The notes under the pieces were generated by a model. It did no database searches and was not told where the DNA came from. It saw nothing but the letters and a program-made list of their open reading frames with translations. Both the position numbers and the translations under genes were made by a program. Shown piece by piece: positions 36,309-45,941 of a stretch of 64,000 nt of DNA (positions within the stretch are counted from its first letter, which is position 1; the number at the start of each line of letters is the position of its first letter). This DNA is from DHVE2 group archaeon (lineage in GTDB: Archaea; Thermoplasmatota; Thermoplasmata; Thermoplasmatales; Aciduliprofundaceae), in NCBI GenBank assembly GCA_026993785.1, contig JALWRZ010000010.1:337199-401198 (forward strand), in the 5' to 3' direction.

Positions 36309-37939
36309 TAAATCCAGAGCTGGAAGAAATAAAAGACATCGTTGCTCAAAATTTCAAATTTTATGATTTTAGAATTTTTCCCGATCACCTGGAATTCTAT
36401 ATAACCTTTGAGAATGAGAAAACTTTAGAGATGAATTTTGAAAACCTGCGACTTCAATTTAAGGAGAGAAATTTGATTCCCTTCCTCCGAAGAAAGGGAG
36501 GAGAATATGTTATCATGGTAATGAAAAATCCACCGCGGAGGTATCGGAGCGTCTATATTAATATCATCCTCCTGGTACTGACCTTTGCATCTACCATATG
36601 GGTAGGCTCTTTGTACTATTATAGTTATTATGGCGTCTCTGATTTATGGCACCAGCTGTGGGGCGGGTTCCTTTATTTTTCAGTACCTCTTCTGGCCATT
36701 CTGGGCTCCCATGAGATGGGCCATTACTTTGCTGCTAAGAAGCACAGGGTAGATGCCTCACTCCCATTCTTCATACCTGCACCCACGATATTCGGAACTT
36801 TAGGGGCGTTCATATCCATGCGGGATCCAATCCCCAACAGGAAATCTCTTGTGGATATAGGCCTGGCTGGTCCTATAGCAGGTTTTATCGTGGCCATTCC
36901 CGTAACCCTCATAGGAATCTATCTGGGACATATTCATACACCATCGCCGCCACCACAATCTGGAGTTGTAGTGCATCTATTTCATATGCCTCTTATCTAC
37001 TATCTCTTCTTTCTTATAATTCCACCCTCGGAGTTTATGCATCCTGTGGCTATGGCGGGATGGGTTGGTTTCGTGGTAACAGCCATAAATCTCTTCCCCG
37101 TAGGACAGTTAGATGGCGGGCATGTGGCCAGGGCACTGGCAGGCGAGAAAGCAAAGTATATAAGCTATGGATTCGCAGCGCTTCTTGTCGCCCTAGGATA
37201 CTTTTACATTGGGTGGCTCATCTTTGCCTTTCTTGTGATATTTTTGGGACTAAGACATCCCCCACCCCTTAATGACGTTGTGAAGTTAGATAAGAAAAGA
37301 ATCGCCCTTGCGGTAAGCGGGTTCCTACTTCTGGCAGTAACCTTTGTACCCGTGCCCATAGAGACCGTGCATGAAAGTCTAGAGCTAGAGGTATCTACCA
37401 CATCCACATTTCTCATTGAGGGGCTCAGTGATTCTGCTACCTTACATATCTGGATCAACAATACTGGAGATGTAGAAGAAAACATCACCTTGAAAGTTCA
37501 AGGCCAATTCATAATCCCTCAGCATAATTTTACCTTTAATCTGTCCAAGGGAGAAGGAAAAATGATAAAAGAGGATGTTTGGATGCTGAAAAAGGGGATG
37601 CATACCCTCCATATAATGGCAAGCACTATAACCAACACAGTATACTGGAAAAATATTACCTTCAAATGCTTTGAGAAGAGCCCCAGCTTTAGCTTTAATA
37701 GAACTATAGTGCATGGCTATGTTTTCAATGTGACCCTCTCCAATTTCGGGATGGCCAGAAATTTGGAATTTTTGAGCTTTAACAACGTGAGCTTTAATAT
37801 CACAAATCTACCGAGTACCTCCCTCTACCTAGAAAGTAATTCCTCTTACCAGCTACAGTTTGTTGTGACTGCTCCAACCATTATTTTAGCAGTAGACCCT
37901 GAGAATTACGAGGTTACCTGGTTGAAAGTAGAGATTTGA
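36305..37939 (+). CDS. Site-2 protease (M50) with C-terminal extracytoplasmic domain
   Basis: SHEMGHYFAAKKHRVDASLPFFIPAPTIFGTLGAFISM, NLFPVGQLDGGHVARAL; C-terminal about 180 aa beta-rich. Confidence 0.93.
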   Translation: MINPELEEIKDIVAQNFKFYDFRIFPDHLEFYITFENEKTLEMNFENLRLQFKERNLIPFLRRKGGEYVIMVMKNPPRRYRSVYINIILLVLTFASTIWVGSLYYYSYYGVSDLWHQLWGGFLYFSVPLLAILGSHEMGHYFAAKKHRVDASLPFFIPAPTIFGTLGAFISMRDPIPNRKSLVDIGLAGPIAGFIVAIPVTLIGIYLGHIHTPSPPPQSGVVVHLFHMPLIYYLFFLIIPPSEFMHPVAMAGWVGFVVTAINLFPVGQLDGGHVARALAGEKAKYISYGFAALLVALGYFYIGWLIFAFLVIFLGLRHPPPLNDVVKLDKKRIALAVSGFLLLAVTFVPVPIETVHESLELEVSTTSTFLIEGLSDSATLHIWINNTGDVEENITLKVQGQFIIPQHNFTFNLSKGEGKMIKEDVWMLKKGMHTLHIMASTITNTVYWKNITFKCFEKSPSFSFNRTIVHGYVFNVTLSNFGMARNLEFLSFNNVSFNITNLPSTSLYLESNSSYQLQFVVTAPTIILAVDPENYEVTWLKVEI

Positions 37940-38603
37940 ATCGCAATGCATCTTCCCACATATTGGTGTTATTGAACATCACATAATCCCCGTCCTTCAC
38001 CAATTTTTTGAGCCGCAATAGCTCCTCGTCACTGTAGCGATATCTGTAACTGCCTATGCCATGGAGCCTATAATAGGAAAACTCGCCCCACACCTTCTCT
38101 CTTTTGAATGGGTCCACAACATGAATCAATTTAACCTCTTGACATATTTTTCTCACGGTTTCATCGCTCCAATTCCCTCTCGGTTCCCATCCGAACACAA
38201 AATCCCGCTCTATGGAGTTAAAGAACTCGTATATGTTTCTCACATTCTCCTCTTTCTCTTTGAAACTTGCGGGACTTTGAAAGATTATTATATCTGCGTG
38301 AAGTATTTTAGCTATCTCCCTGAAGTGTTCCCAGGATTCCATCGTATCCTGATTTACTTTAAAAAAGCCGAAGTCCCCCATTTTTCCTTTGTATCTTCGA
38401 TATGTAGGACTGCTAGGTGGATGAGTTATAGTCTGCGGCGCTTTTAAAACGAACTCGAAATCATCAGGAGCTTGCTCCCTCCATTTAGCAGCCAGTTCTG
38501 GGGAAATTGGCGTATAAAAGCTTTTCTGTATTTCCACTACCTTGAACTCTTCGAAATATTTCTTTCGCGATGCCGAGAACCCACAGGTTCCTATGTGAAT
38601 CAT
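37914..38603 (-). CDS. DUF72 family protein
   Basis: MIHIGTCGFSASRKKYFEEFKVVEIQKSFYTPISPELAAKWREQAPDDFEFVLKAPQTITH; start at 38603. The ORF-track extension to 38984 runs through a repeat element. Confidence 0.9.
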   Translation of the reverse strand: MIHIGTCGFSASRKKYFEEFKVVEIQKSFYTPISPELAAKWREQAPDDFEFVLKAPQTITHPPSSPTYRRYKGKMGDFGFFKVNQDTMESWEHFREIAKILHADIIIFQSPASFKEKEENVRNIYEFFNSIERDFVFGWEPRGNWSDETVRKICQEVKLIHVVDPFKREKVWGEFSYYRLHGIGSYRYRYSDEELLRLKKLVKDGDYVMFNNTNMWEDALRFKSLLSTR

Positions 38604-38639
38604 CAATATCTCTAAGAAAAAAGGGAATTTAAAACCTTC

Positions 38640-38895
38640 CCCAATGGGAACCACCAGCGGGTTCCCATCCCCTCCTGCAACCAAACGATGCGATGAACCT
38701 CCGGCGGGTTCCCATACCATCCAGCATCCACACTGGGAACCACCAGCGAGTTCCTTTACCTCCTGCACTAGACCCCTCCAGCGGGTTTCTAGTACTTCCA
38801 GCAACCCTGGGAACCACCAGCGGGTTCCCATTCCCTCCTGCAACCAACCAAACACGTGGGGGTGTAGAGAGGGGGTGAAACCCCCTCCGTAGGGA
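38640..38895. repeat. Hairpin repeat array (five hairpins plus conserved tail module), copy 1
   Basis: Hairpins at 38646-38666, 38695-38712, 38735-38754, 38768-38792, 38809-38829, most with ccagc/ccggc loop core and a ycctgcaacc or yccagcaacc spacer; tail cgtgggggtgtagagagggggtgaaaccccctccgtag. Confidence 0.9.
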
Positions 38896-38928
38896 AAGTT
38901 TATAAATTCACGCTCTTTACCATTAAAT

Positions 38929-39441
38929 ATGGATGAGATTATGAAGAAGGTGGAGGCTGTTCTGTTCTCTTCTGAAAACCCCATGAGGGTTGGAGAAATC
39001 GCCGAGATAATTGGTCACCAATCTTCTGAAGTTAGCAAGGCTATGAAGAAATTGAGAATGGAATATGAGAAGAGGAAGGGGGCTATAGAAATAGCAAAGA
39101 TAGGAAACAAGTATGTTATGCAGTTGAAAGAAGAGTATCTGGAATATGGGTATCGCGTGGGTAAGAGGGAGATGAGCGATGAGGTGCTTCGCACCCTGGC
39201 TATTATAGCTTACTATCAGCCTATTACGCAGAGCAAGCTTCGGGAAATTATTGGCTCCAGAGTTTATGAATATGTGGATGAGCTAAGACACCGTGGCTTC
39301 ATTTATGGGAAGAAATCCGGAAAAACTGTGGTGTTGAGAACTACCAAAAGATTCAACGAGTATTTTGGAATAGACGCATCCAAGCCGGAAGAAGTTAAAA
39401 AATTTCTGGAAGAGAAGGCAGGAGGTGAGAAAAATGAATAA
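38929..39441 (+). CDS. scpB: Segregation and condensation protein B
   Basis: KKVEAVLFSSENPMRVGEIAEIIG, LRTLAIIAYYQPITQSKLREIIGSRVYEYVDELRHRGFI. Confidence 0.93.
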   Translation: MDEIMKKVEAVLFSSENPMRVGEIAEIIGHQSSEVSKAMKKLRMEYEKRKGAIEIAKIGNKYVMQLKEEYLEYGYRVGKREMSDEVLRTLAIIAYYQPITQSKLREIIGSRVYEYVDELRHRGFIYGKKSGKTVVLRTTKRFNEYFGIDASKPEEVKKFLEEKAGGEKNE

Positions 39442-43665: not shown

Positions 43666-45138
43666 TTATATATTTTTTCTCTCCTGGAACACTGGGGTAT
43701 TGCGAAGCCACTCAACATCGCTAATATAGAGATCCCTAATATCCTTCAGACCCAGGGTGATCATGGCAAGCCTCTCGAGGCCGAGTCCCCAGGCAAGAAC
43801 TGGATATTCGATACCTAGAGGCTCCGTCACCTCCGGTCGAAATATACCTGCACCTCCTAACTCCAACCATTCGCCGTTGTAGTATACCTCCACCTCCAAA
43901 CTGGGCTCAGTGTATGGGAAATATGAAGGTCTAAATCTTATGGTGGGAAAGCCCATCAGAGAATAGAATTTTTTAAGGATGCCTAATAACATGCGGAAAT
44001 TGGAATCCTCGTCCATGTAAATCCCTTCAATTTGAGTGAATTCTGGAAGATGCGTGGAATCCATGTTCTCTCTTCGGAACACACGACCTATGGAGAACAT
44101 CCTTACCGGGGGCTTCCGATGCTCATATAAATAGCGAATTGAGTTGACCGTAGTATGGGTTCTAAGCATAGCTCTCTCTGCCACCTCTCGGCTCCACTTA
44201 TACTGCCATCCTCGAGATATTCCTCCACCGTTCTCATGCATATCTTTGACTCTCATCATATATTCCTCATCCTCAATCTCCAATCTCTCCGGTTTCTTTA
44301 GATAGAATGTATCCTGTAATTCCCTCGCTGGATGGTCCTGGGGTATGAAAAGAGCATCCATGTCCCAGAATGTGCTTACCACATAATCCCCCTGCACCTC
44401 CTCGAACCCCATCATCTGAAATATTTTTCTTATCTTCTCAATAATCCTGGTGAGTGGATGAATTTTCCCTCCATACACCTTGGGTGCAAATAAACTTACA
44501 TCGTATCTCTTTAGCTCATAATCCCTCCATTTTCCACTTTTGAGAAGCTCTGGGGTAAGCTGGGTAATCTCTTCCTTGAGCTCTATGCCCTCCTTCAAGA
44601 TTTTCTCTCCCAGAGAAGTAAGCATTACGTATCTTCTAACCCTTTCTTTTTTAGCAATTAAACCCTTTCTTTTCAAGAGATCCTGAAGAATTTCTCTATC
44701 CACTTCCTTTTCATCCACGCATCTCTCTTTAAGCATCTCAAGAACCCTTTCCTTCTCTCTTATCTTCGCTTCTACATCCACAAATTTTAGCCTGCCCCTC
44801 TCAATGGGAATGCCCATCTTTTTGAGGTGTCCAACACCTCGGCTAACAACATCCTTGGGAAGGATCTGCGATAGCTCCCCTATATCTATTTCTCCCTTCT
44901 CCTTTAAGATGTCAAAAACTCTTCTCTCAGGAAGAACCTCATCTCTATTCAGACAATATTTGACCTCCAATTTCTCCTCCACCTTAACTAAACCTTTCAC
45001 TCGAAGCCAAGAAACTCCGTTCATAACCTTAACAAGCTCATCAAAGCCTCCAAGATTCATTATTTCCTCCACACTCAATTTTTTACCTGCATCACCGAGA
45101 ATCAGAAGTATCTTCTTCTCTATGTTGCTAAGCTCCAT
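43666..45138 (-). CDS. pheS: Phenylalanyl-tRNA synthetase alpha subunit
   Basis: GGKIHPLTRIIEKIRKIFQMMGFEEV, MDALFIPQDHPARELQDTFYL, LRTHTTVNSIRYLY, AWGLGLERLAM; start at MELSNIEKKILLILG. Confidence 0.95.
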   Translation of the reverse strand: MELSNIEKKILLILGDAGKKLSVEEIMNLGGFDELVKVMNGVSWLRVKGLVKVEEKLEVKYCLNRDEVLPERRVFDILKEKGEIDIGELSQILPKDVVSRGVGHLKKMGIPIERGRLKFVDVEAKIREKERVLEMLKERCVDEKEVDREILQDLLKRKGLIAKKERVRRYVMLTSLGEKILKEGIELKEEITQLTPELLKSGKWRDYELKRYDVSLFAPKVYGGKIHPLTRIIEKIRKIFQMMGFEEVQGDYVVSTFWDMDALFIPQDHPARELQDTFYLKKPERLEIEDEEYMMRVKDMHENGGGISRGWQYKWSREVAERAMLRTHTTVNSIRYLYEHRKPPVRMFSIGRVFRRENMDSTHLPEFTQIEGIYMDEDSNFRMLLGILKKFYSLMGFPTIRFRPSYFPYTEPSLEVEVYYNGEWLELGGAGIFRPEVTEPLGIEYPVLAWGLGLERLAMITLGLKDIRDLYISDVEWLRNTPVFQERKNI

Positions 45139-45174
45139 AAATGTGGATATCCGCCCGCTTTTTAAAACTTTCCC

Positions 45175-45262
45175 CACTAGACACCTCCAGCGGGTTTCTA
45201 GTACTTCCAGCAACCAACAAAAATCGTGGGGGTTTAGAAAGGGGGCGTAGCCCCCTTCGTAG
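45175..45262. repeat. Hairpin repeat element (one hairpin plus conserved tail module), copy 2
   Basis: ctagacacctccagcgggtttctagtacttccagcaacc (45177-45215) matches 38768-38806 with one mismatch; tail cgtgggggtttagaaagggggcgtagcccccttcgtag. Confidence 0.9.
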
Positions 45263-45293
45263 AAATAATTAAATTGGAGATGCATTTCACTTT

Positions 45294-45941
45294 ATGGAAA
45301 TTTGCAGGGGTTCAAGATGTCTGAAAGTTGAGCTAATTGCCTATTCTTTGCCCAAGGAGGGTGATGTGGACAAACTTGTGGCGGAAAGTGGGGCCATATC
45401 CCATGCTCCTGAATTCAGGGAGCTTGATGAGAAGAGGGTAAGACACCTTATAGAGTTGCTGCGAAAGCTGGGCCATGAGAGTGTATTCGAGCATGCATGC
45501 TTTACCTTCCGTGTTGAGGGCATATCACGGGTTTGCACGCACCAGCTTGTTAGGCATAGATTAGCGAGTTATACCCAGCAGAGTCAGAGATATGTAAAGC
45601 TTAAAAATCCAAAGTTCATCGTGCCCGAGGCTATATTTGGCAGCCAATTTGAGGAGGAATATATGGAGCTCCTGGAAAAGGCATCAGAGCTGTATCGCAG
45701 AATGGTTGAGGGTGGCATCCGAAAAGAAGATGCGCGATTTATACTTCCCCAGGGTGTTGAGACAAAGATAATAATAACCATGAACGGCCGTGAGCTGCGC
45801 CATTTCTTTAGCCTTAGATGCGAGAAGGATGCCCAGTGGGAGATAAGAAATCTTGCCAAAGCTATGCTCAAACAGGCCTATGAAGTTGCCCCGATTCTTT
45901 TTGAGGATCTCTACAAGAAATATATTGAAAATTACCCATAG
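45294..45941 (+). CDS. thyX: FAD-dependent thymidylate synthase
   Basis: RHRLASYTQQSQRY ThyX motif; FEHACFTFRVEGISRVCTHQLVRHR. Confidence 0.96.
   Translation: MEICRGSRCLKVELIAYSLPKEGDVDKLVAESGAISHAPEFRELDEKRVRHLIELLRKLGHESVFEHACFTFRVEGISRVCTHQLVRHRLASYTQQSQRYVKLKNPKFIVPEAIFGSQFEEEYMELLEKASELYRRMVEGGIRKEDARFILPQGVETKIIITMNGRELRHFFSLRCEKDAQWEIRNLAKAMLKQAYEVAPILFEDLYKKYIENYP

Follow-up and report, generated by a model that had tools for sequence, protein, structure and literature searches.

Modular hairpin repeats at promoter edges in an Aciduliprofundum/DHVE2 genome: a probable clade-restricted, REP/BIME-like family

The divergent gap between pheS and thyX in this DHVE2 archaeon holds one member of what is probably a clade-restricted, REP/BIME-like family of non-autonomous, modular hairpin repeats placed at promoter edges. 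Analysis of the 64,000-nucleotide stretch of DNA introduced above (the window) and of the 1.66-Mb genome to which it belongs (Aciduliprofundum/DHVE2; 14 contigs) reveals ~48 clusters of these repeats, a count that follows removal of one coding false match and that clusters lacking both search motifs would escape. The sequence-only reading of the window had described an element in two copies, a figure now superseded. Assignment to a dispersed, mobile type of element is well supported.

The 39-bp match from which the two-copy description arose is confirmed: CTAGACACCTCCAGCGGGTTTCTAGTACTTCCAGCAACC is found exactly at 45177-45215 and with one mismatch at 38768-38806, and such a match was obtained in 0 of 100 dinucleotide shuffles. 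The copy upstream of thyX (copy 2) lies, as had been stated, in a divergent gap, with pheS on the minus strand and thyX on the plus strand (Table 1). Both this region and that upstream of scpB (copy 1) hold a second repeated unit that had gone uncounted, GGGGGTKTAGARAGGGGG...CCCCCTYC; copy 2 thus consists of a single H and a single T unit (two hairpins), and copy 1 of five H units and a single T unit. The earlier count of one hairpin versus five thus stands for the H units and omits the T hairpin of each copy, which in copy 2 is AAGGGGGC-GTA-GCCCCCTT. The distance from element to ORF start, given as about 32 bp for both copies, is ~32-36 bp at thyX and ~36-41 bp at scpB, values that vary with the chosen element end; the TATA-like box is the sharper anchor. 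Single-strand folding of the two copies is moderately better than that of shuffled sequences (z ~ -2.1 and -2.6). Rfam models at gathering score detect a 5S rRNA and one tRNA alone in the window and do not match the element, a result that rules out a known RNA family as its identity. Open frames cross the H and T units at 37914-38984 (DUF72) and 43666-45285 (pheS), the latter a 539-aa ORF that runs through the element to 45285. Both ORFs are thereby falsely extended at the N terminus, and automatic annotation may misplace their starts. Proteins of Aciduliprofundum sp., DHVE2 and Thermoplasmata MAGs share 68-82% identity with PheS.

Table 1. Features of the thyX and scpB copies and their surroundings, in window coordinates; TATA-like boxes are predictions
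Feature	Position	Strand	Basis or remark
pheS CDS, H-side divergent neighbour	43666..45138	-	ORF list and tblastn to relatives; start ~45138
pheS TATA-like box TTTTAAAA (minus strand)	45160..45167	-	predicted; same TTTTAAAA kept in relative L124
10-bp spacer, BRE-like GGGGAAAG side, from pheS TATA to H unit	45168..45177	-	
H unit: hairpin TAGACACC/GGTTTCTA plus tail TACTTCCAGCAACC	45178..45215	+	the earlier match begins 1 base before
short linker, H to T unit	45216..45227	no strand	
T unit GGGGGTTTAGAAAGGGGGCGTAGCCCCCTTC	45228..45258	+	hairpin at 45239-45257
thyX TATA-like box TAATTAAA, 7 bp past T unit	45266..45273	+	conserved as AATAATTAAAT in G001, G002, G003
thyX CDS, T-side gene	45294..45941	+	ORF list; ATG at 45294
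DUF72 gene TATA-like box, 10 bp from first H unit of copy 1	38627..38634	-	
copy 1 array, five H units	38645..38847	+	unit starts 38645, 38692, 38734, 38769, 38808
copy 1 T unit GGGGGTGTAGAGAGGGGGTGAAACCCCCTCC	38858..38888	+	
scpB TATA-like box TTTATAAA, ~10 bp past T unit	38899..38906	+	kept in element-free G001, G002

Clusters were located with H-core and T-core searches, and ~240 kb around them was read out. The H core has 39 exact matches in the genome and the T core 72, or 100 when one mismatch is allowed. Among 250 genomes sampled evenly from the class, only one family, of vent archaea, has the T motif. Of 18 genomes of that family, 12 carry it, with 1-18 occurrences per genome apart from the source genome; expansion of the repeat in the source species is strong. 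The cultivated species A. boonei appears to carry a few copies. H units are 38-39 bp long and T units ~32 bp, M modules are enlarged T units, and clusters are ordered H(n), optional M, then T(n). An H unit consists of a hairpin (TGGGAACC/GGTTCCCA or TAGACACC/GGTTTCTA) followed by a tail ending in CCTGCAACC or CCAGCAACC; a T unit read on the opposite strand is also a hairpin followed by a tail (GAAGGGGGC...GCCCCCTTTCTAAACCCC), and the hairpins therefore face outward at both cluster ends. The number and type of units vary freely, and the composition of clusters is mosaic, with blocks common to several loci. In the H stems, 25 cells show a two-sided pair change versus a maximum of 19 in 1000 shuffles, an excess that kinship can inflate. 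Each M module resembles a T unit whose enlarged tip accommodates one or two extra hairpins of interchangeable sequence. RNAalifold gives these modules -1.9 kcal/mol with a two-sided change in 2 of 10 pairs, a covariation signal that is weak because whole hairpin tips differ and align poorly; a common fold of the M modules was dropped on this result.

The similar placement that had been noted at two loci extends across the genome and is sharper when referred to the promoter, with the T end ~10 bp upstream of a TATA-like box. Among the 38 of 46 clusters that have a good TATA-like match, the gap separating the last T unit from the best TATA-like octamer has a mode of 10 bp and falls within 7-13 bp in 36. 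Where an H end faces a divergent gene, the TATA of that gene is typically 10 bp away, and is 10-11 bp away in 12 of the 22 cases that could be scored. The T-side gene (or tRNA) is nearly always directed away from the element. These TATA boxes are predictions backed by ortholog conservation and by position, which for thyX and scpB is ~25-31 bp ahead of the start codon. A similar T-end spacing is seen at occupied promoters of other species (including L128, L129 and L133). T-side genes often have a housekeeping look and include those for ribosomal proteins, purine/pyrimidine synthesis, a proteasome subunit and tRNAs.

Two explanations of this spacing must be weighed here. Random insertion followed by purifying selection only, with the survivors just outside the BRE in a compact genome, is conceivable although doubtful. 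Native gaps are short: at element-free divergent junctions <20 bp often remain beyond the pair of core promoters, and L103 and thyX, where empty, show gaps of ~15-25 bp; however, 36 of 38 has a tail of ~3e-9 even were half of all insertions to land in the 7-13 bp zone, and constraint alone does not predict outward hairpins at both ends. A regulatory or insulator module, in which structural DNA or binding sites roughly one helical turn ahead of the TATA box tune or shield housekeeping promoters, is quite improbable. Such a module would fit the fixed TATA spacing and its similarity in other species, the housekeeping appearance of many T-side genes and the seven occupied promoters common to a congener, but it is at odds with orthologs that are mostly element-free yet keep the core promoter and with the free variation in unit number and type, and the role makes no sense in tRNA introns and a transposase ORF, where the same units occur.

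The DUF72-scpB and pheS-thyX gaps were compared with those of relatives. At the scpB site, the element is absent in congeners G001 and G002 and GGAAAGTTTATAAATTC is kept; the thyX site is occupied in G002, with the same junction CCCCTTCGTAGAAATAATTAAATT, and empty in G001, G003 and G009. Orthologous promoters in G001-G003 are mostly empty, with a conserved core promoter. L103 alone has syntenic, and hence comparable, flanks on both sides; it presents a clean 206-bp presence/absence insertion into a very short native gap with both neighbors kept, and shows no evident target duplication. The empty orthologous sites, the restriction of the T motif to one family and the L103 insertion support the dispersed element already suspected from the window. 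The sequence-only reading had held that one sequence found at identical loci in every relative, and at no other place, would instead mark ancestral regulatory sites; most orthologous promoters are empty and the clusters are dispersed through the genome, and an ancestral regulatory site is ruled out by the empty orthologous promoters. About seven occupied promoters are common to the source genome and a congener, and the set is therefore part inherited and part species-specific.

The elements also coincide with changes in gene order. Among 25 loci with usable ortholog sequence, the H-side neighbor was found upstream of the ortholog at one, the L087 match in this count being a match to a T unit, whereas neighbors were kept at 5 of 11 element-free promoter junctions in the window and at all 19 operonic junctions (1/25 versus 5/11, Fisher p = 0.006). 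We regard the association of elements with lost synteny as suggestive because the two groups were measured differently and the assemblies of relatives are fragmented; the control is also small. The breakpoints probably arose through recombination between copies. Lost synteny at elements is likewise expected if intergenic cassettes spread by ectopic recombination via the near-identical bordering BRE-TATA, with no transposase involved, and this process would also give both ends often flush with BRE-TATA and a mosaic of blocks common to several loci. We nonetheless consider it unlikely, as BRE-TATA homology covers only ~14 bp, and as it explains neither the L103 insertion with both neighbors kept nor the occurrence of lone units in transposase ORFs, in tRNA introns and in the 3' flanks of tRNAs.

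Units also occur inside tRNA-Pro(TGG) and (CGG) introns in most genera. The tRNA-Pro intron carries an H unit in the source genome and several relatives; in other relatives, congeners G001 and G003 among them, the unit is T-type. The tRNA-Pro identity was assigned from sequence, a local ARAGORN run having given a wrong anticodon. The intron with its H unit at L113 (G000:C11:22508-22628) is 95-99% identical across the genera G006, G007, G009, G011 and G013, and is more conserved than most of the genome. That H and T units are mobile tRNA introns, originating in tRNA-Pro and spread elsewhere, would fit this occurrence but is highly improbable. Some species have no intron in tRNA-Pro (G008, G012 and G017) or an intron with no unit (G010), the splice-site part of the intron (the CTCCAGAAA side) is missing from dispersed copies, and H and T are swapped at one intron position, which looks like insertion into the intron. 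The start of T-type units can also lie no more than a few bases from a tRNA 3' end, and the 3' flank of tRNA-Pro has such units at L246, L248, L255, L263 and L271. The A. boonei casposon also targets the tRNA-Pro 3' end (PMC6614799), a correspondence that is possibly coincidental.

Transposase ORFs are a further site of occupancy. G007 and G011 each have a T unit in frame in a transposase ORF, where other copies read native sequence. At L275, L276, L282 and L285, the in-frame T unit encodes EGGxAPFLNPQ in DDE-type transposase ORFs and is absent from most sibling transposase copies of the same genome. Some loci of relatives have H or T units near IS ends with the terminal inverted repeat (TIR) GGGTAAGTTG. 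No parent IS was identified among the IS ends near relatives' copies; as sibling transposases lack the T unit, the IS with this TIR is read as a host of insertion rather than as the parent.

The basic piece of the modular family described here, ~32-39 bp long and either H or T, is a hairpin with a pyrimidine-rich tail behind it; T units may hold nested hairpins (M modules). Units lie singly or in tandem, with the outward hairpins of the cluster ends directly against the upstream edge of the core promoter (BRE/TATA) on one or both sides; copies would then recombine to yield mosaic composites and chromosomal breakpoints. The units were presumably transposed by a putative enzyme. The source genome contains no Y1/RAYT transposase, a finding that rules out a REP with its own RAYT, and no other mobilizing enzyme was found. 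Y1_Tnp occurs in 2 of 18 family genomes, both congeners, as one complete IS605-like TnpA/TnpB pair and one partial. In G002 (L305, on C165), an IS605-like TnpA/TnpB pair adjoins pheS at the junction that holds the hairpin element in the source genome. The fixed TATA spacing likely reflects more than selection, and could be produced by targeting, by selection acting on very small gaps or by exchange of cassettes among promoters. A mobile hairpin element guided by the transcription initiation machinery (TBP/TFB on BRE-TATA), whose units could also colonize tRNA introns and which would be the archaeal equivalent of Ty3/TRE5 targeting, is a speculative and rather unlikely extension. Counting against mobility, ~7 occupied promoters are shared with a congener, and the tRNA-Pro intron with its H unit, 95-99% identical across genera, is conserved above the level expected of a passing insertion.

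Known repeat classes share some of these features. As in bacterial REP/BIME sequences, the units are short hairpins of 20-40 bp, extragenic, present in many copies and arranged in tandem or mosaic clusters; unlike GTAG-tagged REPs mobilized by a RAYT, the archaeal element has no RAYT and is locked to promoters. Half of 56 T-type units have CCAC or CTAC (CYAC) as 5' flank, which recalls tagged REPs with a different polarity, and the flanks of H units are mixed; neither a GTAG nor a CGTC end tag was found on T-type (56 flanks) or H units. CGTC-tagged REPs have been reported with no dedicated transposase (PMC3733652), and absence of an enzyme here is therefore not unprecedented. Like these REPs and the Rickettsia palindromic elements (PMC3733652), the element is palindromic, with no dedicated transposase, and can sit inside genes; insertion that leaves the gene intact, a Rickettsia-type trait, is found in the tRNA-Pro introns and as the in-frame T unit in transposase ORFs. 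It differs from both in its lack of a CGTC tag, its mostly promoter-edge location and a sequence that is unrelated as far as seen. The T unit is arranged as a G-run, a loop and a G/C hairpin, a layout predicted from sequence that could accommodate a third strand of purines, as in intrastrand-triplex repeats (PMC4666352). MITEs are likewise small, non-coding, dispersed and present or absent in relatives, but we find no clear terminal inverted repeats in common with an IS, and see no target duplication. Precise placement near transcription start regions in a compact genome is also a property of Ty3 (yeast) and TRE5-A (Dictyostelium), although these are retrotransposons directed by Pol III factors, whereas the element described here encodes no enzyme and its targeting is only putative.

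REP-like elements are well studied in bacteria and hardly in archaea. In searches of the open-access literature, no description of such repeats in Aciduliprofundum or DHVE2 was found, and promoter-region targeting was met only for eukaryotic retrotransposons, with no REP-like element at a fixed TATA spacing. TBP/TFB-guided insertion, if true, would be a promoter-targeting strategy beyond eukaryotic retrotransposons. The family offers a natural experiment: sister species have the same genes in occupied and element-free form, a single position in a tRNA intron is filled by different units according to species, and repeats lie at synteny breakpoints. Finally, the A. boonei copies would make expression and mobility testable in a cultivated organism.
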